The notes under the pieces are model-generated. The model was not told where the DNA came from, did no database searches, and worked only from the letters and a program-made list of their open reading frames with translations. 50,431 bases of DNA from Muribaculaceae bacterium Zag1 (GTDB lineage: Bacteria > Bacteroidota > Bacteroidia > Bacteroidales > Muribaculaceae), in contig NWBJ01000067.1 in NCBI GenBank assembly GCA_002633115.1, positions 1 through 50,431 on the forward strand, written 5' to 3'. Positions 281 through 49,040 of this stretch are shown one piece after another. Numbering within the stretch: position 1 is the stretch's first letter; each line of letters begins with the position of its first letter. Position numbers and translations under genes: made by a program.

Positions 281-1114
281 TTATTCGATTTGGTTGGCGG
301 ATTGGTCGCGGGCGATCTGGAGGCGGCGGTCGAGTTTTTCGCGGAGGAGCTGGGCTGAACGCTGACGGAGTTTCAGGTCAGCGTATTTCCAGGCAATGCC
401 GAAAGAGGCGGCTTGCTTGGGATTGAGTTTTACCTTTTGGTTGCCCTTGGTGCCGTAGAGGGTGGCGCCATTGATCTGCGATGCGTTGTCCCAAGCCCAT
501 GCGCCAAGTTCGTTTACCTCCTCCGGGATGAATACGGCGATTTCGCTCCCTTCAACCACCTCCACGCGAGCCGAACCGGCAGGAATCTCATTTGAGACAC
601 ACTCCTGCTGAGGAGTATTGAGAGCCACCTGATTGAGGCCGATGGTTTTGTCCTTCGACTGAGCGGCAACATAATAGGTGAGGTTGGCATCATTGATGCG
701 CGGTTCTACACCAGTGGCATTGATAAACGACGGATTGTAGGCATCAGCCACCACATAGTATCCCTCAAGGCTGTTGCCGTCGATATGCTTCATCTTGGGT
801 TCTATTTCTGCGAGCTGCAGAGTAATCTCAGCCAGCAGACTGTCGGCATGCGCCATCTGCTGCATGGTAGCCTGCTCGATAGCCTTGGGACGCAAGGCAG
901 TGACCCGCTTGCGCTCATCGATCTGCGTAGGATACTTCTTATCCACAGTGTCCATGAGGGCGAGAGCCTCCTCATACTGTCCCTGAGCCAATTGCTGCTC
1001 GATGGTCTCGACTAAGGCCGAAGCGGCCTCCTTCTCCTCGTTCTTCTTTGAGCAACCCATTGCCATCGAGGCCACTGCCACGAGGAGGATTGCCTTACTT
1101 GCTGCGTTGCACAT
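281..1114 (-). CDS. Lipoprotein of unknown function
   Basis: 277 residues. The N-terminus has a short hydrophobic stretch followed by the lipobox SMAMGC, so the mature protein should begin at Cys21 and be lipid-anchored. Residues about 30-110 are rich in A, E, Q and L and look helical or coiled-coil (TPR-like spacing is possible: QLAQGQYEEALALMDTV). The C-terminal half is beta-rich and ends in a basic amphipathic helix. I do not recognise the family. The start codon lies inside the 3' end of the rel gene (20-base overlap), so it is probably the second gene of a rel operon and translationally coupled. A link to stringent response is suggested only by this position. Confidence 0.75.
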   Translation of the reverse strand: MCNAASKAILLVAVASMAMGCSKKNEEKEAASALVETIEQQLAQGQYEEALALMDTVDKKYPTQIDERKRVTALRPKAIEQATMQQMAHADSLLAEITLQLAEIEPKMKHIDGNSLEGYYVVADAYNPSFINATGVEPRINDANLTYYVAAQSKDKTIGLNQVALNTPQQECVSNEIPAGSARVEVVEGSEIAVFIPEEVNELGAWAWDNASQINGATLYGTKGNQKVKLNPKQAASFGIAWKYADLKLRQRSAQLLREKLDRRLQIARDQSANQIE

Positions 1115-3305
1115 CTTTTACGCCTTTTACTGTTTTTAGTTTTTTGATTAGATTATCCAATGACTTGGTGTCGTTGACCCCCACGATCAGATAGCCCTGG
1201 AACAGGCCATCGTTGGAGTCAATCGAGATATTGCGCAGTGACACATCTTTCTCCTTATTAATAATAGATGTGATGTTGGTGACGATGCCGATGTCGTCGC
1301 GCCCTACGATGCGTAGAGTGGCTGCGAACTGTCCTCCGAGTTTTCCCGACCACTGCGTGCGGATTATGCGGTAAGGATACTTCTCCTTGATGTTTTGCGC
1401 ATTGGGGCAATCAATTCGGTGAATCTTCACCACGCCCTCCTGCGATACGAATCCGAACACCTGGTCGCCGTAGATAGGATTGCAGCAGCGGGCAAACTTG
1501 AAATTCAACCCTTTGACATTGTTGTCGATGATCAAGATGTCGTGGCCAGAGGCCAACTCCTGATCCTCGGCTGTCTGCTGCAGCACATACTCTCCGGCCG
1601 ACACCTTGGCGCTCTCTTCCCGAGCCTTGCGCTCCATGTCGAGATATGCCTCGATAACAGTGTTGACATCGAGCGTCTCATCGGCCAGAGCAGTGTAGAA
1701 GTCAGTAGCGGTGCGATACCCGAGCTTCTTGACCACACGGGCCACATCGCCGTCGGGGATCTCAATCTTGCGGTTCTTGCAGCGACGCTGCAACAACTCC
1801 TTGCCTATCTCAGCCGATGCGGCCGCTTGCTCCTTGACAGCCACGCGTATCTTGTTGCGTGCCTTTGAGGTCACGGTATAGTTGAGCCAGTCGGCTTTAG
1901 GCTTCTGAGTAGGAGAAGTGAGAATCTCGACCGTATCGCCGGTACGCAGCTTGTAGCTGATCTTCTGGTTGCGCCCATTGACTTTGCCGCCGGTGCACTT
2001 GCATCCGAGGCCGGTGTGGATGTTGAAGGCGAAGTCGAGCACCGAGGCACCCATCGGCAGCTTGTAGAGGTCGCCGCGAGGAGTGAAGACAAACACCTCC
2101 TTGTCGTAGACATCCATCTTGAAATTCTTCATCAGCTCCATCGGGCCGGTCTCGGCAGTCTCGAGGATGTCGCGCACATTATTCATCCACTTATCCAGGT
2201 CGTTCTCGCTCTTGATGCCCTTGTACTTCCAGTGGGCAGCGAGGCCCTTCTCGGCAATCTCATCCATGCGGCGAGTGCGTATCTGCACCTCCACCCACTT
2301 CTCGGCCGGCCCATAGACAGTGATATGCAGCGACTCATAGCCGTTGCTCTTGGGTATGCTTATCCAGTCCTTCATGCGTGCCGGATTGGGCCGATACATG
2401 TCGGTGATAATCGAATAGACATACCAGCACATCGCCTTTTCCTTCTCCGGAGGCACATTCAGGATGATGCGAATGGCAAACAGGTCGTAGATGTCGTCGA
2501 CATCGTTTTTCTGCTTGCGCATCTTGTTCCAAATCGAATAGATCGACTTGGTGCGCCCTTTCAGCTCAAAGTCCAGCCCCTCCTCTTCAAGTCGCTTGCG
2601 GATGGGCTCGATAAAGGCGGCGATGTAAGCCTCGCGCTCAGCCTTCTTCTGGTTGAGCTTGTGGGCAATCTCGGTATACATCGCGCGGTCGGTGTACTTG
2701 AGCGACATATCCTCAAGTTCCGACTTCATGGCATAGAGGCCCAAGCGGTGGGCCAACGGGGCATAGAGGTAGTTGGCCTCATAAGCCACATCGTGCACGA
2801 ATTTGTCGTTGGGGTGATGGTTGATGGCTCGCATCAGTGCCAGACGGTCAACGATCATGATGATGATCACCCTGATGTCTTTGGCGAAGGCGAGAAGCAG
2901 TTTGCGGAAATTCTCGCTCTCGACTGCCGCTTGCTTGGAGTAGAGCTCAGCCACCTTTTGCAAGCCGCGCAGCAGCTTGGCCACATCGGCTCCCCATTGG
3001 GTCTCAAGATCTTGGGTTGAGATAAAATCGTCCTTGGCCAGGCTGTATAGCAGTATGGCGAGTGCCATGTTGCGATCGGGACTGACTTTTTCGCATAGCA
3101 GACAGGCAGTCTGCAGGTTGTGATGGAGCGGATTGATGCCGTAGCGGTCGCGTTGGCATAAGCCATCGGCCACTGCCTGAGCCATCAGGGTTTTCACTTT
3201 CCGAAAGTCGTCTGGGGCGCTGTCGCTGCGCAGATAGCCCCATAGTTGGCGGCTAAGTTTGATGATGTCTGCGCGTTCGGTGTCGTTGAAATATCCGTGT
3301 TCCAT
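1095..3305 (-). CDS. rel: RelA/SpoT-family (p)ppGpp synthetase with degenerate hydrolase domain
   Basis: 736 residues with the full long-Rel layout. An HD-like region spans about 50-200, a synthetase domain about 250-365 (GRTKSIYSIWNKM, RMKD at 310-313, YESLH, EVQIRT), TGS starts near 402 (FVFTPRGDLYKLP), then a Cys-Cys region (FARCCNPIYGDQVFGF) and a C-terminal ACT domain. The HD doublet of the hydrolase (normally LLHD) reads LLYS at 85-88, and the usual RLHNMRT motif reads RLALMRA. This pattern resembles synthetase-only RelA, although the synthetase keeps the RxKD form typical of bifunctional Rel. I infer ppGpp synthesis without hydrolysis, so a second Rel/SpoT should exist elsewhere in the genome. 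Transcribed divergently from the LolE-like gene. Confidence 0.93.
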   Translation of the reverse strand: MEHGYFNDTERADIIKLSRQLWGYLRSDSAPDDFRKVKTLMAQAVADGLCQRDRYGINPLHHNLQTACLLCEKVSPDRNMALAILLYSLAKDDFISTQDLETQWGADVAKLLRGLQKVAELYSKQAAVESENFRKLLLAFAKDIRVIIIMIVDRLALMRAINHHPNDKFVHDVAYEANYLYAPLAHRLGLYAMKSELEDMSLKYTDRAMYTEIAHKLNQKKAEREAYIAAFIEPIRKRLEEEGLDFELKGRTKSIYSIWNKMRKQKNDVDDIYDLFAIRIILNVPPEKEKAMCWYVYSIITDMYRPNPARMKDWISIPKSNGYESLHITVYGPAEKWVEVQIRTRRMDEIAEKGLAAHWKYKGIKSENDLDKWMNNVRDILETAETGPMELMKNFKMDVYDKEVFVFTPRGDLYKLPMGASVLDFAFNIHTGLGCKCTGGKVNGRNQKISYKLRTGDTVEILTSPTQKPKADWLNYTVTSKARNKIRVAVKEQAAASAEIGKELLQRRCKNRKIEIPDGDVARVVKKLGYRTATDFYTALADETLDVNTVIEAYLDMERKAREESAKVSAGEYVLQQTAEDQELASGHDILIIDNNVKGLNFKFARCCNPIYGDQVFGFVSQEGVVKIHRIDCPNAQNIKEKYPYRIIRTQWSGKLGGQFAATLRIVGRDDIGIVTNITSIINKEKDVSLRNISIDSNDGLFQGYLIVGVNDTKSLDNLIKKLKTVKGVKDVQRSK

Positions 3306-41639: not shown

Positions 41640-41810
41640 GCCCCCTAACCCCCCGCTGCGGGGGGAAGGCTACCGCCTGCTGAGGGAGACCCATCAGCAA
41701 CCCGTAGCGACGTGCTGCGTCAGCGTGAGGGGCCCAGGCGCCCTCGCAGGTCCGGTAAGCAACCCGAAGCGACGTTGTTGGTGGAGGCGCGAGTCTATGA
41801 CCCTTAGGGG
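41640..41810. repeat. CCCCTAACCCCC element, copy 1
   Basis: Begins GCCCCCTAACCCCCCGCTGC, then GGCTACCGCCTGCT, AGCAACCCGTAGCGACGT, a GGCCCAGGCGCCCTCGCAGG block, and a second GCAACCCGAAGCGACGTTGT. Related copies lie at 43420 and 48660. Part of the 881-base gap 41604-42484, which has no credible gene. Confidence 0.8.
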
Positions 41811-42274: not shown

Positions 42275-42341
42275 GTGTTTTTTCATGGTATTAGATTTAA
42301 GGTTAACTAAGATTGGTTGTCGAGAGACAATCAATTTTTTT
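42275..42341 (+). ncRNA. Candidate small RNA (about 65 bases)
   Basis: Lies between a consensus promoter and an intrinsic terminator, with no open frame of note. The transcript would contain CATGGTATTAGATTTAAGG and GTTAAC followed by the terminator hairpin. The CATGGTATTAGATTTAAGG piece reminds me of leaders in front of RNA-binding and cold-shock genes in Bacteroides, but I cannot verify that; here no such gene follows. It could be a stand-alone sRNA or an orphaned leader left after a gene was lost. Start position is estimated from the -7 box. Confidence 0.5.
42309..42341 (+). terminator. Intrinsic terminator of the candidate small RNA
   Basis: Stem ATTGGTTGTC / GACAATCAAT (one G-T pair) with a GAGA loop at 42322-42325, then seven T residues. 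Confidence 0.85.
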
Positions 42342-42356
42342 ATGCCCATACGGTAA

Positions 42357-42919: not shown

Positions 42920-42972
42920 TCCTTAACCACACGAAGGATTTCACGAAGTACGAAGAGCCCTTCGTGGTTAAC
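42920..42972. repeat. CACGAAGG-type inverted repeat between the XRE and peptidase genes
   Basis: CCTTAACCACACGAAGG, then CACGAAGTACGAAG, then the complementary CCCTTCGTGGTTAAC. A short form of the 37072 element, placed just beyond the peptidase stop. Confidence 0.7.
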
Positions 42973-43393
42973 TTCCCCATTTCAGGATGAAGAGGAGGTA
43001 GCGCCGCAGAGGGCGGAGGGCCAGCCAGAGGCGCCCTTTGCGCCGCTCGGCGGCTGTGTCGAGGCGCCGTTGGCGCCCTCGCCGCTCGGCCGCGACAGCC
43101 ACCCCCACCACGTCGGCGCGCTTCACGCGCTCACGCGCCTGAATGTTGCCATCGCCCATCAGCGTCAGCTCCTCGCCGTCGACCGCCACGATGCGGTGCA
43201 TCACGTAGGGATGCTCAGCCGTGTACCGCGCCAGAACAATCGCGCCCACGCGCATAACCTCCGCCTCCGGCGGCGCAAGCGTCACCAGGTCCAATCCGGG
43301 CCTGAGCCAAGGCCTCATGCTGACCCCGCTCACCGGTATCATCACCTGCCTCCCCTCCTCCAGCAGCCTCGCTGCCTCATCTATTATTGTCAT
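42968..43393 (-). CDS. S24/S26-family peptidase, Ser-His (SipW/Sec11-like) type
   Basis: 141 residues. The nucleophile box is VSGVSMRPWLRPG (Ser25). The place where bacterial signal peptidase I has its catalytic lysine reads YVMHRIVAV (His66), as in ER/SipW-type signal peptidases, and MGDGN (Asp81) follows. There is no N-terminal membrane helix; the only hydrophobic stretch is the basic C-terminus (LWLALRPLRRYLLFILKWG). It may process a small secreted peptide or surface protein rather than act as the general signal peptidase. Divergent from the fusion gene across a repeat-rich gap. Confidence 0.8.
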   Translation of the reverse strand: MTIIDEAARLLEEGRQVMIPVSGVSMRPWLRPGLDLVTLAPPEAEVMRVGAIVLARYTAEHPYVMHRIVAVDGEELTLMGDGNIQARERVKRADVVGVAVAAERRGRQRRLDTAAERRKGRLWLALRPLRRYLLFILKWGS

Positions 43394-43419: not shown

Positions 43420-43628
43420 GCCCCCTAACCCCCTAAAGGGGGGGGAAGGCTACCGCCTGCTTGGGGAGCCCCATCCGCAACCTGTAGCGACATTGTTGGC
43501 GCAAGGGCGCGTCTTCGACCGCCCCCACCCAGGTTTCTGCCTCTCGGTTCTGTGGCTTGCTGCTTGGCAGCTGGCATCCCCTCAACCCGAATCCGCATGG
43601 CAATTCCCCCTTTAGGGGGTTAGGGGCT
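43420..43628. repeat. Inverted CCCCTAACCCC repeats flanking a 162-base segment (element copy 2)
   Basis: Left arm 43420-43443 (AGCCCCCTAACCCCCTAAAG onward) and right arm 43606-43628 (its complement with one base missing). The interior begins GGCTACCGCCTGCTTGGGG and GCAACCTGTAGCGACATTGT, as in the copy at 41640. The right arm lies directly upstream of the fusion-gene promoter. No -7 box is visible inside the segment on either strand. Confidence 0.8.
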
Positions 43629-43639
43629 GTGCTTTTTAT

Positions 43640-43670
43640 TTTGTCAATTCAAAAAAAATCGGTAATTTTG
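43640..43670 (+). promoter_or_regulatory. Promoter of the recombinase-like/NusG fusion gene
   Basis: TTTG (43640-43643), 19 bases, TAATTTTG (43663-43670): the best -33/-7 pair in the window. Transcription should start near 43675, leaving a leader of under 20 bases before the ATG at 43692, so the gene is not controlled by a long leader. Confidence 0.8.
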
Positions 43671-43691: not shown

Positions 43692-45167
43692 ATGAATTGG
43701 AGTGAAATCTTCGATATGAGCATGGCCCAGCGCCATTCGGCGCTCTACGCGCCGGGCGACCAGGGCGACCTCGGCCTGGCCCGCGCCAGCCTTATGGCCT
43801 TCCTCGCCGCACGCGGCGAGACGCTCGACACCGACATCATCGACATCGCCCAACCCGACTGGCTGCCAGCCTATTACCAGTTCGTAAAAGACAATTACCA
43901 GTCTAACAAGTCGCGCAACCTCTCCTCGGCTCCCACTGCCGCCGAGCGGCAACGCTGGGCCAACCGATACATCAAGTGCATACGCAAAGTCGTAAACCGC
44001 TGCATCCGCTACGGCTACCTCCCCAATATCGACTATTTCCACGCCCTGCCAGAGTTCTCGCGCCGCCAAGGCATCGAGGAGGTCAGCCGCGTCACCGCCC
44101 AACTCACCCAGCTCGCTCGCGCCAAGAGCGCGTTCCGCGACGGCCAACTCGTGGTCGGCGCCATCGACCTGTACCTGCTGTGCATGTACTGCGGGGGCCT
44201 CGAGCTCGACGAATTTTTCGCCCTCGCCCCCGAGGCCATCAAGTCCGACCCTCCTCGGCTGCATCTGCCGTGGGCTGGCATCGACATCGAGCTGTCGCCG
44301 ACAGTCTACAACGCCCTGCTGCAGGGACGCGAGACGGCGCCCCGCTCGCCAGCCACCGTCAGCCGCGCCCTCGAGGCCCTCAACATCGACCTATACAAGT
44401 CGCAGTCGGTGTTCTCCGACTGGCTCCGCTTCGCCAAGGATATTGGCATCTCTGACCAGGCAATCCTTGAGATGCTTGAGTTGCGCCGCCAGCCTGGCTC
44501 CGTGGCTTCGCCGCAGCTGGCCGAGGCTATCCGCATGGTGGTCAAGCGCATGAATCAGGCGTACAATAAGTACAAAAAGCAGTGGTACTGCCTATACGTT
44601 CATCGCGGCTGGGCCAAGGAGAAATGCGAGGAGATCCTCGCCTCCGACCCGCCAGTGCTGCCGGGCATCGCGGCGCGAGCCGAAGATTTTTACTATCCCA
44701 ACACCGCCAATGTCAAGATGGCCAAACTCAAAGGGCAGAAACTGCAAGACCCCGGCAAGGTGCTGCGCCGCTATCTGTTTGTTCACTGCTATCTGAGCGA
44801 AATACAGACGATTGCGCGCGAGGTGCCGCGCGTGTCGGTGCTGTCGCGCCGCGAAAGCGGACTGCGCGAGTATGTGGCCATCCCCTCGCATGAGGTGTAC
44901 ACCCTCAAGTTAATGCTCGACAATCTGCGTGGCTCTGAGGCCGAACTGATGCTGCAAGACGAGGACATCGTCGAGGCCATCGACCTGTCGCCACTGCACG
45001 AGCAAGAGCGCGTGCGCATCGTCTCGCCCGGCTACGAAGACTACGAGGCCGTCATCGCCAAGGTCAAGCCCAACTCCACCTACTCTGTCACCTTCCCCAA
45101 CCTCGGCCTCTCCTTCACCCTCCAAAACGTCCCCCGCGCCCTAATCCAACGCCTACCGCCCCCATAA
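43692..45167 (+). CDS. Degenerate tyrosine-recombinase-like region fused to a NusG/UpxY-like antiterminator
   Basis: 491 residues from the ATG at 43692 (MNWSEIFDMS); the longer frame from 43557 crosses the promoter. Residues ~1-120 are helical and resemble a phage-integrase core-binding domain (RWANRYIKCIRKVVNRCIRY). Residues ~130-290 resemble the recombinase catalytic fold: DLYLLCMYCGGLELDEFFAL matches the usual LTGLRxSE helix with the arginine lost, and WLRFAKDIGISDQAILEML matches the HxLRHTFA-helix without catalytic His/Arg; no tyrosine nucleophile is seen. Residues ~297-410 are an NGN domain (KQWYCLYVHRGWAKEKCEEI, VLRRYLFVHCYLSEIQTI, REYVAIPSHEV), and 440-490 a KOW-like end (RVRIVSPGYEDYEAVIAKV). 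I infer a sequence-targeted antiterminator. Whether it serves the convergent glycosyltransferase operon is not shown. Confidence 0.75.
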   Translation: MNWSEIFDMSMAQRHSALYAPGDQGDLGLARASLMAFLAARGETLDTDIIDIAQPDWLPAYYQFVKDNYQSNKSRNLSSAPTAAERQRWANRYIKCIRKVVNRCIRYGYLPNIDYFHALPEFSRRQGIEEVSRVTAQLTQLARAKSAFRDGQLVVGAIDLYLLCMYCGGLELDEFFALAPEAIKSDPPRLHLPWAGIDIELSPTVYNALLQGRETAPRSPATVSRALEALNIDLYKSQSVFSDWLRFAKDIGISDQAILEMLELRRQPGSVASPQLAEAIRMVVKRMNQAYNKYKKQWYCLYVHRGWAKEKCEEILASDPPVLPGIAARAEDFYYPNTANVKMAKLKGQKLQDPGKVLRRYLFVHCYLSEIQTIAREVPRVSVLSRRESGLREYVAIPSHEVYTLKLMLDNLRGSEAELMLQDEDIVEAIDLSPLHEQERVRIVSPGYEDYEAVIAKVKPNSTYSVTFPNLGLSFTLQNVPRALIQRLPPP

Positions 45168-45474: not shown

Positions 45475-46569
45475 TTACACGGGGGCTAGTATCATCTCAA
45501 ACAATTCGCCCCAACTGCTCACCCTTTCATCATCGTAGGGAACGGGAGGATTCGGCTGCCCTTGCCCTCCATTCAGAGCATCCTCCATGGCCTGAGCAAG
45601 GGCCGTGGCATCCTCCATGTCGAAGAAGCGTACATTCTCGGCCCCAGCCGAGGCCTCATGCGCATACGGCGCATCGGCCAACAACATTAGCCTCCCTGTT
45701 GGCAAAAACTCGCTGATGGGCAATCCCCATGTCTCTACTCTCGATGGAAAAACCAGAGCATTGGCTTGGGAATACAGGCGTTGCATCCCCTCTAGATCTT
45801 GCAGTCCGGCAAAGTCTATTGACTTTACTTCTCCCCACCGCTTATGCAACCACCGCCCATACCTATTCTCGGTGCCATCGATAGTGATCACCACCTTGAA
45901 TCGTCCTGTTCCGACCTTATCCTCAAGCAAACGCGCTGCCTGACATAGTAATTCAAAATTTTTATGCGAATCCGGAAATGCGGGATAGAAGAATACGAAC
46001 TCGCCATCTGAGCGCGCATCTCCTATCATTGTCCTTTTCACCTGTGGCGGAAAGACAATGAATTTCTCCTTCTCTACTCCAAGCAACCGAGCAAATGCCT
46101 CTTTGAGCCAATGAGTTTGCACCACCACATGCTGGTTTTGCAGTGCATTTTGCTTATAGGCATGCTTAGCCATCAGGCAAAGCAAAGGTATCTTTGGATC
46201 GTATAGCCAATCGCGTGGTCTGACGCGCATAAACGGGAAAGATGTTTGACAATACACTACCTGCCTCCGAGCTCTGACTTTTGGAGTGGTGTCATGGATT
46301 GAGAACCATAACTCTATCTCCCCCCAATCCCGAGCCAGTCGGTCAAATCCCTTGAATTCCCATCTCAAACGTTTCAGCCAGTGGTTGGATGCCTCTGGTA
46401 TTTCTACCATCTCTACGCCTGGAGCATCATATAGCTTGGCATCATGCACCAGGGCTATCACCCGATATTCTGGTGTCAACACCCTCGCGGCCTCGCTCAG
46501 GCACTCCCTGAATATCTTCAGCGTCCCTCCCTTATGTATGCTTATCCCCGAAAATACTATGGTTTTCAT
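45475..46569 (-). CDS. GT4-type glycosyltransferase (third gene of operon)
   Basis: 364 residues from the ATG at 46567-46569 (MKTIVFSGISIHKGGTLKIF), which gives a 4-base overlap with the upstream gene. GT-B fold features: the N-terminal glycine-rich loop, a second Rossmann half (EFVFFYPAFPDSHKNFELLC) and the retaining motif FPSRVETWGLPISEFL (E-x7-E). It transfers a sugar from a nucleotide donor in surface polysaccharide synthesis; donor and acceptor are unknown. Confidence 0.88.
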   Translation of the reverse strand: MKTIVFSGISIHKGGTLKIFRECLSEAARVLTPEYRVIALVHDAKLYDAPGVEMVEIPEASNHWLKRLRWEFKGFDRLARDWGEIELWFSIHDTTPKVRARRQVVYCQTSFPFMRVRPRDWLYDPKIPLLCLMAKHAYKQNALQNQHVVVQTHWLKEAFARLLGVEKEKFIVFPPQVKRTMIGDARSDGEFVFFYPAFPDSHKNFELLCQAARLLEDKVGTGRFKVVITIDGTENRYGRWLHKRWGEVKSIDFAGLQDLEGMQRLYSQANALVFPSRVETWGLPISEFLPTGRLMLLADAPYAHEASAGAENVRFFDMEDATALAQAMEDALNGGQGQPNPPVPYDDERVSSWGELFEMILAPV

Positions 46570-47687
46570 AGGCCCCCCAGGACTTTCACCCACCTCTTCA
46601 TTATCTTGTCTTCGTCAAATTCGCCCGAGCGCTCTCGTGACTTGCGGCCCATGGCTTTTCTGAGTGCGGTATCGTCCATCAGCTTTTCAAGCGCAGCAGC
46701 GAGGGCATGGATATCGCCATTTGGCACCAGCAGTCCATTCTCGCCATCCTCGATCAGATCCTTCGGACCGCATTTGCAGTCAAAGGCCACCATCGGCAGT
46801 CCATACTCCTGAGCCTCGAGCATTACCATCGGCAGTCCCTCATAGCGCGAAGATAGCACAAATATCGATGCCCCGAGATAGACGGCGCCCATGTTGGGCC
46901 GGTTGGTGACAAACTCAATCTTATCCTCCACTCCGAGGGCACAAGCCCGACTGCGCAGGCTTTCTTCCTCTTCGCCTTGGCCAACAATGCGCAGCAGCCA
47001 ATCGGGATGCTTCTTGCTGGCAATTGCCCAAGCCTCGATTAAGCGGTCAAAGCCCTTTTGATAGTTATATCTTCCTACTGCCACTGCCACTTTTGCATCA
47101 AGTGGCGCAACGCTCTCCGAGGTGAATGTGCGCGGATTGGGTATCACCTCAAGATTCTGCAGCCCTTGCCAATATTCTGCATCTTCCTGGGTCAGCACCA
47201 CCATCTTGTCAAATCGGGATGCCAACTTTGCGCTCTTGCGGCTCATCACCTTGTCGGCGAGAGCCCAGATGCCTTTGCGGCCATATTCGAGATGCTTGAA
47301 GCGCGAGAAATGTATCTCTTGCACCAGCTGCCATCGGCCTCGAGTGGCAGCGACTGCCGACGCATCGACTCCGCCAGTCGAAATCACTACATCAGGCTGC
47401 AGTTCCTCGAGCAGCCGCTGCAAGCGGCGCTTGTGATGGCGTGTCTTTTGCAGATAGCCGAGGGTTTTGACCAGTATGTTTTTGCCATTTGTGGCTTCGT
47501 AATTGATGCCGAGGTCGTAGGTCATGATGCCCTCATTGAGGGCGAAAAATGGCTTTCGGCCCATCTGATCAGACGTGACAATAGCCACTTCATAGCCATG
47601 GCTCTGCAGCCAGTTAGCCTTCTGACTAACCACCCTCTCCATCCCCGCCGAATTATACAGCCCAGGTATGCAATATACAATTTTCAT
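46566..47687 (-). CDS. GT4-type glycosyltransferase (second gene of operon)
   Basis: 373 residues from the ATG at 47685-47687 (MKIVYCIPGLYNSAGMERVV). The 54 extra residues of the longer frame are Arg/Pro-rich and lie inside the upstream gene, so they are rejected. Typical GT4: GLYNSAGMERVVSQ near the start, AVGRYNYQKGFDRLIEAWA, and the catalytic FVLSSRYEGLPMVMLEAQEYG (E-x7-E). 4-base overlaps at both ends. Probably acts in the same glycan as its neighbours. Confidence 0.9.
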   Translation of the reverse strand: MKIVYCIPGLYNSAGMERVVSQKANWLQSHGYEVAIVTSDQMGRKPFFALNEGIMTYDLGINYEATNGKNILVKTLGYLQKTRHHKRRLQRLLEELQPDVVISTGGVDASAVAATRGRWQLVQEIHFSRFKHLEYGRKGIWALADKVMSRKSAKLASRFDKMVVLTQEDAEYWQGLQNLEVIPNPRTFTSESVAPLDAKVAVAVGRYNYQKGFDRLIEAWAIASKKHPDWLLRIVGQGEEEESLRSRACALGVEDKIEFVTNRPNMGAVYLGASIFVLSSRYEGLPMVMLEAQEYGLPMVAFDCKCGPKDLIEDGENGLLVPNGDIHALAAALEKLMDDTALRKAMGRKSRERSGEFDEDKIMKRWVKVLGGL

Positions 47688-48658
47688 CGGAATATATGGC
47701 CGTACACCACCTTGTTGATTAGCCAGCCGTAGAGGGCTGGGATGAACATCAGGCCGCGGGCAGCGGCCAGCTGCACCCAGCGGGTGCGAGTGCTCCAGTG
47801 CCGATTGCGCCCGATGTAGGCGTTGGCCTCGGGCCATAGCTCGCGCCAAGCGCGACGCCCGTCAGCGTCGCTGAGCAGCATCGGCCACTTGGCCTCAAGC
47901 TTCATAAATGCAATCTCGTCATCGACAGCGTTGCCCAGTTCGCGCCGCATAAACTCCTCGGTGCGAGCCACATTGTATTTCAAATCAACAAGATGGCTCG
48001 GCTTCTTTGTCATCGAGAACGCCCCCGTGTTGAGCTTTACATAGTGGTAGAGCGCCTCGGGCAGATGAGCCACTCGCCCAGCGCGTGCGAACAGCATCAT
48101 CATCGTCATATCCTCGCCCATGCCGTGCCCAGCCGGAAAACGTATATCCTCGCCGTAGAGCGAGCGCCGACACAGCTTGTTCCACACATTGTACTTCATC
48201 TCGCCGCTGAGCATCCCCCGCAGCGCCTCGATGGGCGTGGAGTACGACGGCTGGTGCATGTATCTCTCCTTTTCGGAGAACGACAGCCACCAGTCAGTCC
48301 ACACGATGTCGGCATCTTGCGCCCGAGCGCAAGCGAGCATCTTCTCGAGCGCATCCGGCTCGACAAAGTCGTCGCTGTCGCAATGGTAGATGTATTCGCC
48401 TCGAGCTGCCGCCAACCCCGTGTTACGGGCTGCTGGCAGCCCCTGGTTCTGCTCATGCTCGATGATGCGCACCTGGCCCTCGCGCTCGGAATGCCGCGCG
48501 ATGACCTGCCTGAGCAGCTCGATGCTCCGGTCCTTAGTGGCGTCATTGACAAAAATAAACTCCACCCCATCCCTCATCGTCTGCCCCATCAGCGCCTCCG
48601 CCCCCTTCTCAATAAACTTCTCCACGCCGTAGACAGGTATTATCACCGTTATTAACAT
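47684..48658 (-). CDS. GT2-type glycosyltransferase (first gene of operon)
   Basis: 324 residues from the ATG at 48656-48658 (MLITVIIPVYGVEKFIEKGA). An upstream in-frame stretch would translate the CCCCTAACC repeat and is rejected. GT-A fold with VIIPVYG, FIFVNDATKDRS, GLPAARNTGLAAARGEYIYHCDSDD (metal-binding DSD) and a helical, basic C-terminus. It heads a three-gene operon whose promoter is not obvious; a weak TTAATTTG lies near 48765. The repeat element directly in front of the ATG would form a strong hairpin in the mRNA. Confidence 0.9.
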   Translation of the reverse strand: MLITVIIPVYGVEKFIEKGAEALMGQTMRDGVEFIFVNDATKDRSIELLRQVIARHSEREGQVRIIEHEQNQGLPAARNTGLAAARGEYIYHCDSDDFVEPDALEKMLACARAQDADIVWTDWWLSFSEKERYMHQPSYSTPIEALRGMLSGEMKYNVWNKLCRRSLYGEDIRFPAGHGMGEDMTMMMLFARAGRVAHLPEALYHYVKLNTGAFSMTKKPSHLVDLKYNVARTEEFMRRELGNAVDDEIAFMKLEAKWPMLLSDADGRRAWRELWPEANAYIGRNRHWSTRTRWVQLAAARGLMFIPALYGWLINKVVYGHIFR

Positions 48659-48659
48659 G

Positions 48660-48712
48660 CGGCCCCCTAACCCCCGCAGCGGGGGGAGGCTGCCGCCTGC
48701 TTGGGGACTCCC
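48660..48712. repeat. CCCCTAACCCCC element, copy 3, at the glycosyltransferase start
   Basis: GCCCCCTAACCCCCGCAGCG, then GGAGGCTGCCGCCTGCTTGG, ending two bases from the GT2 start codon. Self-complementary CCCCCGC/GCGGGGG. On the mRNA strand it would be the 5' leader. Confidence 0.85.
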
Positions 48713-48791
48713 ACTTGAATCCTTTGATGACATATTATTAAATTAATCTGTATAAGTAAAGGGTCAAATTAAAATTAAATTTTAGTTTGAA

Positions 48792-48994
48792 AAAGGAACC
48801 ACAGATTTACACAGATTCACACAGATTCAACTATGCGAATCGCCTATTCCATGGAGGCGCAGTCGCGCCGACAGATTTCCACAGATGCCATCCGGATGGT
48901 CTGTGAAATCTGTCGGCACCTCTGGTGCTCTAAGAAATACAATAGTGGTCATCTGAGGAATCTGTGTGAATCTGTGTAAATCTGTGGTTCCTTT
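48792..48994. repeat. Nested palindromic element B (ACACAGATT type)
   Basis: Outer arms 48792-48828 and 48958-48994 are 37-base perfect reverse complements (AAAGGAACCACAGATTTACA onward). The inner palindrome 48867-48917 (GCCGACAGATTTCC ... AAATCTGTCGGC) has CCATCCGGATGG at its centre (48888-48899). Right interior GCTCTAAGAAAT matches GCCTCTAAGGAAT of element A. It fills most of the 382-base gap 48659-49040. Confidence 0.92.
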
Positions 48995-49040
48995 CCATAT
49001 TTTAAATTCAAAATGGAAGGTTACTTAATCTGCTCGTTTT

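Follow-up and report, generated by a model that had tools for sequence, protein, structure and literature searches.

A Muribaculaceae protein family with a UpxY-type NGN-KOW half and a putatively recombinase-derived half that has lost its catalytic residues

The window, i.e. the whole analysed stretch of 50,431 nucleotides (contig NWBJ01000067.1 of Muribaculaceae bacterium Zag1, assembly GCA_002633115.1), carries on its forward strand a gene for a pseudo-recombinase/NGN fusion protein of 491 amino acids (43692–45167), which was delimited by its open reading frame and by matches to NusG and UpxY profiles. The frame runs from an ATG at 43692 to the stop codon at 45167 and stays open in the 5′ direction as far as a TTG at 43557. 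A preliminary description of the locus had assigned the gene a promoter of its own and had placed it opposite a glycosyltransferase operon; promoter motif and glycosyltransferase genes are indeed in place. The motif TTTG-N19-TAATTTTG (43640–43670, forward strand; TTTG at 43640–43643, TAATTTTG at 43663–43670), which we take from the consensus to be a Bacteroidetes-type promoter, lies 21 nt before the ATG, so that the leader is about 21 nt long. The fusion gene is monocistronic, with no operon behind it. Convergent to it, three glycosyltransferase genes (45475–46593, 46566–47849 and 47684–48733), identified as such by Pfam and NCBIfam, make up a run on the reverse strand (45475–48733); the sister genome shows the nearest of them in the same convergent position relative to its fusion. 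On the other side, a small signal-peptidase-I-like gene is divergent (42968–43393, reverse strand; NCBIfam sigpep_I_arch, E = 1e-6, below cut-off). Upstream of the promoter there is an inverted-repeat pair (43422–43626) with arms at 43422–43443 and 43605–43626. Each arm is one copy of a dispersed palindrome rich in GC, CCCCTAACCCCC...GGGGG, and the pair can therefore be ruled out as a specific inversion site; the repeat occurs four times in the window (41642–41663, 43422–43443, 43605–43626 and 48664–48685), where none would be expected by chance, and no promoter motif lies between the arms. Minor features of the window are a small RNA of the FopS family (RF04319, Bacteroidetes; 42275–42344, forward strand; 77 bits in Rfam, cut-off 56) and a long near-palindrome 5′ of the glycosyltransferase run (about 48790–49000), which was spotted by eye.

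In the carboxy-terminal part of the protein, Pfam NusG (PF02357) matches residues 296–404 (44577–44903, forward strand) with E = 2e-4 and 22.2 bits, which is exactly the cut-off, and with 24.8 bits when this part is searched alone. The NCBIfam UpxY profile (NF033644) matches residues 298–477 (44583–45122, forward strand), i.e. the NGN domain and a KOW-like C-terminus, at E = 7e-10 and 39.1 bits, below its curated cut-off of 100, and the RfaH and LoaP profiles gave no match to the window protein at E ≤ 1. The NGN-plus-KOW reading of the preliminary description is thereby confirmed for an NGN domain of the UpxY/NusG type; the KOW domain, for which Pfam gave no match in the window protein, is predicted from the UpxY and family profiles. 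The amino-terminal half (residues 1–290, 43692–44561, forward strand) is recognizable through its family as a core-binding region followed by a catalytic-like region without catalytic residues. No Pfam family matched the N-terminal 293 residues, a search of PDB sequences with the window protein alone returned four matches at chance level, and a single-sequence structure model had a mean pLDDT of 35.5, too low for a fold comparison.

The host genome (4.46 Mb, 137 contigs) encodes a second full-length homologue on contig C49, which is 28% identical. Narrow searches, which gave 2 of 61, 1 of 393 and 2 of 297 genomes with the own genome included, would restrict the fusion to the host and its sister. 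Such uniqueness was rejected because wider profiles found many more members: 19 of 297 genomes from the host's family were hit by a three-row profile (E ≤ 1e-12), which also yielded further long frames, and a fusion profile matched 93 of 397 genomes of this family, in 12 of 30 genera, at E ≤ 1e-30, some of these matches spanning one half only. Thus, the search for homologues with the same fusion that the preliminary description had proposed led to a widespread family. As 60 regions were picked by hand from the matches in the 93 genomes as spanning both halves, the counts given in the following describe full-length fusions and not all matches; together with the window and C49 they constitute a set of 62 loci. 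The N-terminal part measures 267–344 amino acids in 63 of 64 fusions, and in 16 aligned fusions Pfam detected PF13102 in eight, NusG in eight and KOW in five (E ≤ 0.1). One member found via long-frame UpxY proteins, L016 (459 amino acids), combines PF13102 (3e-11) and XerD-type matches at its N-terminus with NusG (1e-5) and a weak KOW match, and its UpxY score of 104 bits passes the cut-off of 100. L120 (44 bits) and L169 (50 bits) fall far below this cut-off, as does the window protein, i.e. three of the four scored fusions. In L020 (291 amino acids; 428–1300, reverse strand) the core-binding domain leads straight into NGN-KOW, with no catalytic-like domain in between.

Across the order, a 16-row profile matched 33 of 393 genomes at E ≤ 1e-20. 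The 37 places listed comprise the two host fusions and, in a Rosetta-stone pattern, 35 other places that correspond either to the recombinase half (28) or to the UpxY half (7); with the best few candidates per genome scored, these 393 genomes yielded no fusion in another family. A mobile-element home of the fusion was ruled out by plasmid, phage and viral-contig searches. The window protein had no match in the plasmid and phage collections, the 18 phage records matched by L016 correspond to the recombinase half (10) or the UpxY half (8) with none covering 80%, and no relative was confirmed among viral contigs. In the passages returned by full-text literature searches we found no report of a recombinase–NGN fusion architecture, and the excerpts obtained of PMC7819879, PMC7593976, PMC9247905, PMC12691694, PMC12632263 and PMC12118408 do not describe the fusion.

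The relationship of the amino-terminal half to recombinases becomes apparent at the level of the family. Against a profile of 27 recombinases the N-terminal half of the window protein gave E = 3.3, which is not significant; against the N-terminal profile of the other fusions it gave E = 5e-7, and 20 shuffled copies produced no listed match at E ≤ 10. A profile–profile comparison of 61 fusion N-terminal halves (window, its paralogue and L020 left out) with the 27 recombinases reached 99.8% (E = 5.9e-29 over 260 columns) versus 0.28% for the C-terminal half as a control, by which a chance resemblance is ruled out. When three divergent members (window, C49 paralogue and L123) were pooled, the match to the recombinases still amounted to 95.9% (E = 5.8e-9). 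The 16-row fusion profile retrieved from the PDB sequences NusG (E = 8.5e-11), the integrase domain 2key (2e-4) and Cre (0.0017 at best), and the N-terminus of the C49 paralogue matched PF13102 (recombinase core-binding) at 9e-4 with 20.0 bits against a cut-off of 22.3. As judged from these profiles, residues 1–290 are recombinase-derived, in line with the preliminary description, although for the window protein this holds through its relatives only.

The preliminary description had also noted the absence of the catalytic Arg, His-x-x-Arg and Tyr positions, and the alignment agrees: the window protein has G (Arg I), F (Arg II, taken from reading the alignment), R (His III) and Q (Tyr) at the catalytic columns, so that none of the four residues is kept. 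Over the whole set of 64 fusions, which includes L020 without its catalytic-like region and both L155 fusions, Arg I is kept in 3 (versus 24 of 27 recombinases), Arg II in 9 (versus 27 of 27), His III in 7 (versus 26 of 27) and the catalytic Tyr in 1 (versus 25 of 27). The structural Trp of the HSWAT box is present in 62 of 64 fusions and 26 of 27 recombinases. Counted per protein, 46 fusions retain no catalytic residue, 16 retain one and two retain two; among the recombinases, 22 have all four, four have three and one has two. Homologues with intact catalytic residues, which the preliminary description had considered, were not encountered, since none of the 64 fusions holds all four. The loss extends to the charge. 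With both groups compared over one set of 291 alignment columns, the median net charge of the N-terminal half is 0 in the fusions (−11 to 10, n = 63) versus +12 in the recombinases (1 to 21, n = 27), a difference whose p value (2e-12) should not be read at face value, given that the sequences are related. Only one basic position, a Lys (63%), is conserved at 60% or more in the N-terminal half of the fusions. Given the difference in net charge, the basic DNA-binding surface of the recombinase half seems to be mostly lost.

The window copy is under purifying selection. Relative to the sister genome G006, dN/dS amounts to 0.076 (codons 26–491), with 0.095 for the N-terminal half (codons 26–290) and 0.045 for the C-terminal half (codons 291–491); at codon 20 the sister copy differs in length by one base. 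The genomes of the host (G000) and its sister (G006) measure 4.1–4.5 Mb, versus 1.9–2.9 Mb in 35 other listed genomes of the genus. In a tree of NGN-KOW sequences, into which L020 entered twice, 59 of the 64 fusions lie on one side of a branch (100/92), and with midpoint rooting the window and C49 sequences together form a long-branched first split. Because five other fusions are located with or beside plain UpxY sequences and at least three label changes are forced, a single origin cannot be claimed. The simplest reading, long branches permitting, would be a large clade accompanied by at least one additional fusion. L020 is possibly an independent fusion, as it groups with plain UpxY. A group of its own in the NGN tree is formed by UpxY-like proteins of 301–366 amino acids from three genomes that are extended at the C-terminal instead of the N-terminal end (L017, 1077–2174; L018, 598–1620; L019, 937–1839; all on the reverse strand).

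The next ORF downstream that has 110 or more amino acids shares the strand of the fusion in 47 of the 62 loci. Among 87 downstream proteins, the Pfam families assigned most often were polysaccharide synthesis (8), class I/II aminotransferase (8), nucleotidyltransferase (6), DegT (5) and Poly_export (5). Upstream, where 87 of 103 proteins were scanned (ten among the longest were omitted, plus the six from L175, L176 and the window), HIT (6) and recombinase core-binding (4) domains were found and the remainder was scattered. The C49 fusion is followed by an rmlA-like gene, presumably rmlA, and an RmlD-family gene. A full promoter match within 700 nt is present at 26 of the 47 operon-head loci, versus a rate of 2% in mononucleotide-shuffled upstream regions; in 21 of the 26 it is at least 83 nt from the called start, whereby the leader lengths are minima because start codons were called at the most upstream position. 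The class of 13 loci in which the fusion appears alone contains mis-calls caused by small spurious ORFs, and L138 was placed in the operon-head class. By judgement, nine loci are stand-alone, namely the window and eight loci of genus g231, which, like the window, have a TAATTTTG- or TAACTTTG-type promoter close before the start. One of these g231 fusions (L143, 4030–13201) lies amid pectin-degradation genes (GH88, GH106, rhamnogalacturonan lyase), and the neighbours at the seven other loci are similar in size. Within this large family, the window copy is a divergent and unusual member that stands alone behind a short leader.

An inverted-repeat pair just upstream of the fusion (at least 17 nt, at most one mismatch in the seed, 110–420 apart) was detected in 21 of 62 loci, the window included, versus 1 of 95 control windows, which were random and covered intergenic and other DNA alike. 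In 19 of the 21 pairs we interpret the arms as forms of TATCTCTT-N3-AAGAGATA whose spacers are inverted, which would be expected of paired recombinase sites. The promoter motif TANNTTTG, which is short, is located within 19 of the 21 pairs, forward only in 10, reversed only in 5 and in both orientations in 4; the two pairs without it, those of the window and C49, have GC-rich arms. In a total of 890,412 bases, 33 instances of TCTCTT-N3-AAGAGA were counted. They are spread over 20 loci and all fall between 453 nt upstream and 19 nt past the called fusion start; none was found in the host genome. From these arrangements, promoter inversion is predicted for the loci with family-type arms. The tie to polysaccharide switching made in the preliminary description hence applies to the relatives, with their operons and repeats, but not to the window locus. 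The contig end upstream of the C49 fusion (L021, 1–175) has two direct and two inverted CTACCCCGTAGGGG-type palindromes. For Bacteroides and Parabacteroides, an arrangement comprising an invertase, palindromic repeats and UpxY or NusG is on record (excerpts of PMC12118408; see also PMC12632263).

Complementary 7-mers are enriched in 36 leaders, and part of them are inversion sites of the TCTCTT-N3-AAGAGA type. A second leader element (R1) is a candidate RNA hairpin of the form CCUCYGU...ACRGRGGG, followed by UCGG or AAGA. In a by-eye alignment of 20 leaders, which were also selected by eye, 89.4% of the cells are paired, compared with 78.8% in shuffles and 51–68% when the pairing is slid, and the covariation is 0.48, compared with 0.28 and 0.17–0.23, respectively, a value reached in 0 of 500 shuffles; because the stem was picked by eye, these figures are biased towards it. 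Variation on both sides is seen in six of the eight pairs, and further pair types are no higher than in shuffles (70/500). A model of the hairpin gave 34 matches over 60 loci at E ≤ 1, and the 31 at E ≤ 0.13 that were checked comprise the 20 of the training set and 11 new ones. Ten of these 11 are on the strand of the fusion near its start, two before it and eight inside the called ORF by 12–140 nt, which fit only if the true start is later; the match at L137 is on the opposite strand inside the fusion. All in all, the hairpin is near the fusion start in 31 of 62 loci. In 31 further sources the model gave seven matches at E ≤ 1, one of them before the C49 fusion (19.2 bits; E = 0.025 among the 31 sources and 0.5 for the whole genome). 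The window had no match at E ≤ 1. Since another of these matches precedes a plain UpxY gene of the host genome (18 bits), the hairpin may belong to UpxY-type leaders at large. A match on C133 was ruled out as a trans target, being within a flippase-like gene. Two further matches are located about 740 nt before a called UpxY ORF (L036, E = 0.0095) and beyond the end of the sister's fusion (L025, E = 0.06).

We consider it fairly probable that the fusion is a UpxY-type antiterminator with a domesticated, catalytically dead invertase half, whose relatives act at operon heads and whose window copy acts in trans. Most likely, the family arose by fusion of adjacent genes for a tyrosine invertase and UpxY in Bacteroidales polysaccharide loci. 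In most relatives the fusion leads an operon, behind a promoter that often lies between invertase-type inverted repeats. If UpxY and LoaP are taken as models, its NGN-KOW part would load on RNA polymerase in the leader and enable it to traverse the long polysaccharide operon. The pseudo-invertase half would probably serve as a contact module for an active invertase, for itself or for weakly bound inversion sites, and could in this way tie antitermination to the state of its own switch. We propose a contact role because selection has preserved this half even after it lost its catalytic activity and the bulk of its positive charge; that it is found at inversion-type promoters argues for a link with the switch. 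Having no operon, no hairpin and no family-type inversion sites, the window copy would probably be trans-acting like RfaH. A bolder version, which we regard as speculative and rather unlikely, casts the pseudo-invertase half as a sensor or lock for the inversion state of its own promoter and lets the hairpin-loaded NGN half license transcription of the operon; stand-alone copies would have spread to other targets. If true, switch and elongation control would be united in one molecule.

The preliminary description had instead regarded the dead recombinase half as a sequence-specific DNA-targeting module that brings the NGN domain to chosen operons. The recombinase ancestry, the invertase-type palindromes at the promoters of relatives and a slightly higher N-terminal charge in fusions with an inverted-repeat pair (median +3, n = 22, versus −1 without, n = 41) fit this idea, but it is weakened by the same-column net charge of 0 versus +12 and by the single conserved Lys, and the hairpin found near the start in half of the loci could supply specificity without any DNA binding. 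A DNA-targeting module is thus not borne out and appears doubtful; a protein-contact role is at least as likely. It is conceivable, if similarly improbable, that the pseudo-invertase pairs with or blocks an active invertase and thereby fixes its own promoter in the on (or off) state, leaving antitermination to the NGN domain. Inner promoter motifs in the pairs at 19 loci, reversed only in five, would suit such a lock, as would the putatively active recombinase genes upstream of the fusion at L169 and L167, of which that of L169 is confirmed by family matches. Yet the host genome is devoid of family-type repeats, and eight of the nine stand-alone loci have kept the N-terminal half without any pair, the ninth being the window with its dispersed repeat.

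That the N-terminal half is a functionless, decaying relic of a read-through fusion could be suspected from its high divergence, the lost catalytic residues and the missing catalytic-like part of L020. This we judge highly improbable in view of the low dN/dS of this half in the window, its narrow length range and the structural Trp, which persist in nearly all fusions, and the many diverged lineages. Better placed, albeit short of probable, is an RfaH-like role of the window copy as a trans factor for the adjoining glycosyltransferase run or for the rml locus on C49. Its monocistronic gene with a 21-nt leader, the convergent glycosyltransferase gene conserved in the sister genome and the promoter motif near the start of eight stand-alone relatives from another genus favour this assignment, but no shared element was found, the window has no R1 hairpin and the C49 locus possesses a fusion of its own.

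UpxY prevents termination in its leader, and capsule control is regarded as having two layers, phase variation by promoter inversion and UpxY antitermination. That a dead invertase and the antiterminator are physically joined throughout a widespread family suggests that both layers communicate. The fusion shares its NGN-KOW part with UpxY (NF033644) of Bacteroides capsule loci, but UpxY lacks the roughly 290 recombinase-derived N-terminal residues. With Mpi and the locus-linked tyrosine DNA invertases upstream of CPS loci it has the core-binding and catalytic-domain ancestry in common, and the palindromic inverted repeats of these invertases recur at the promoters of fusion relatives; it differs from them in having lost catalytic residues and charge and in being joined to an NGN domain. 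RfaH is monocistronic and acts in trans on ops. The window copy resembles it in being monocistronic with a short leader but carries an extra domain and fails to match the RfaH profile. In LoaP, which acts with the dfn leader hairpin, a NusG paralogue is likewise associated with a leader RNA hairpin, although the candidate hairpin of the fusion family has another sequence and the window protein does not match the LoaP profile. According to the excerpts of PMC12632263 and PMC12118408, polysaccharide operons with invertible-type promoters begin with UpxY; most fusion relatives share this trait, which the stand-alone window copy lacks. Through the family it may become accessible how UpxY-type factors locate the operon they belong to, and whether they recognize leader RNA like LoaP, a question for which the covarying hairpin offers itself as a target. 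The family also represents a clear case of a recombinase-derived domain retained by selection without catalytic residues. Separate adjacent recombinase and UpxY genes are present in the host genome and in other families. On host contig C38 (L052, 1015–3232, forward strand), a recombinase gene is directly followed by a gene for a 360-amino-acid UpxY-like protein without a Pfam match.
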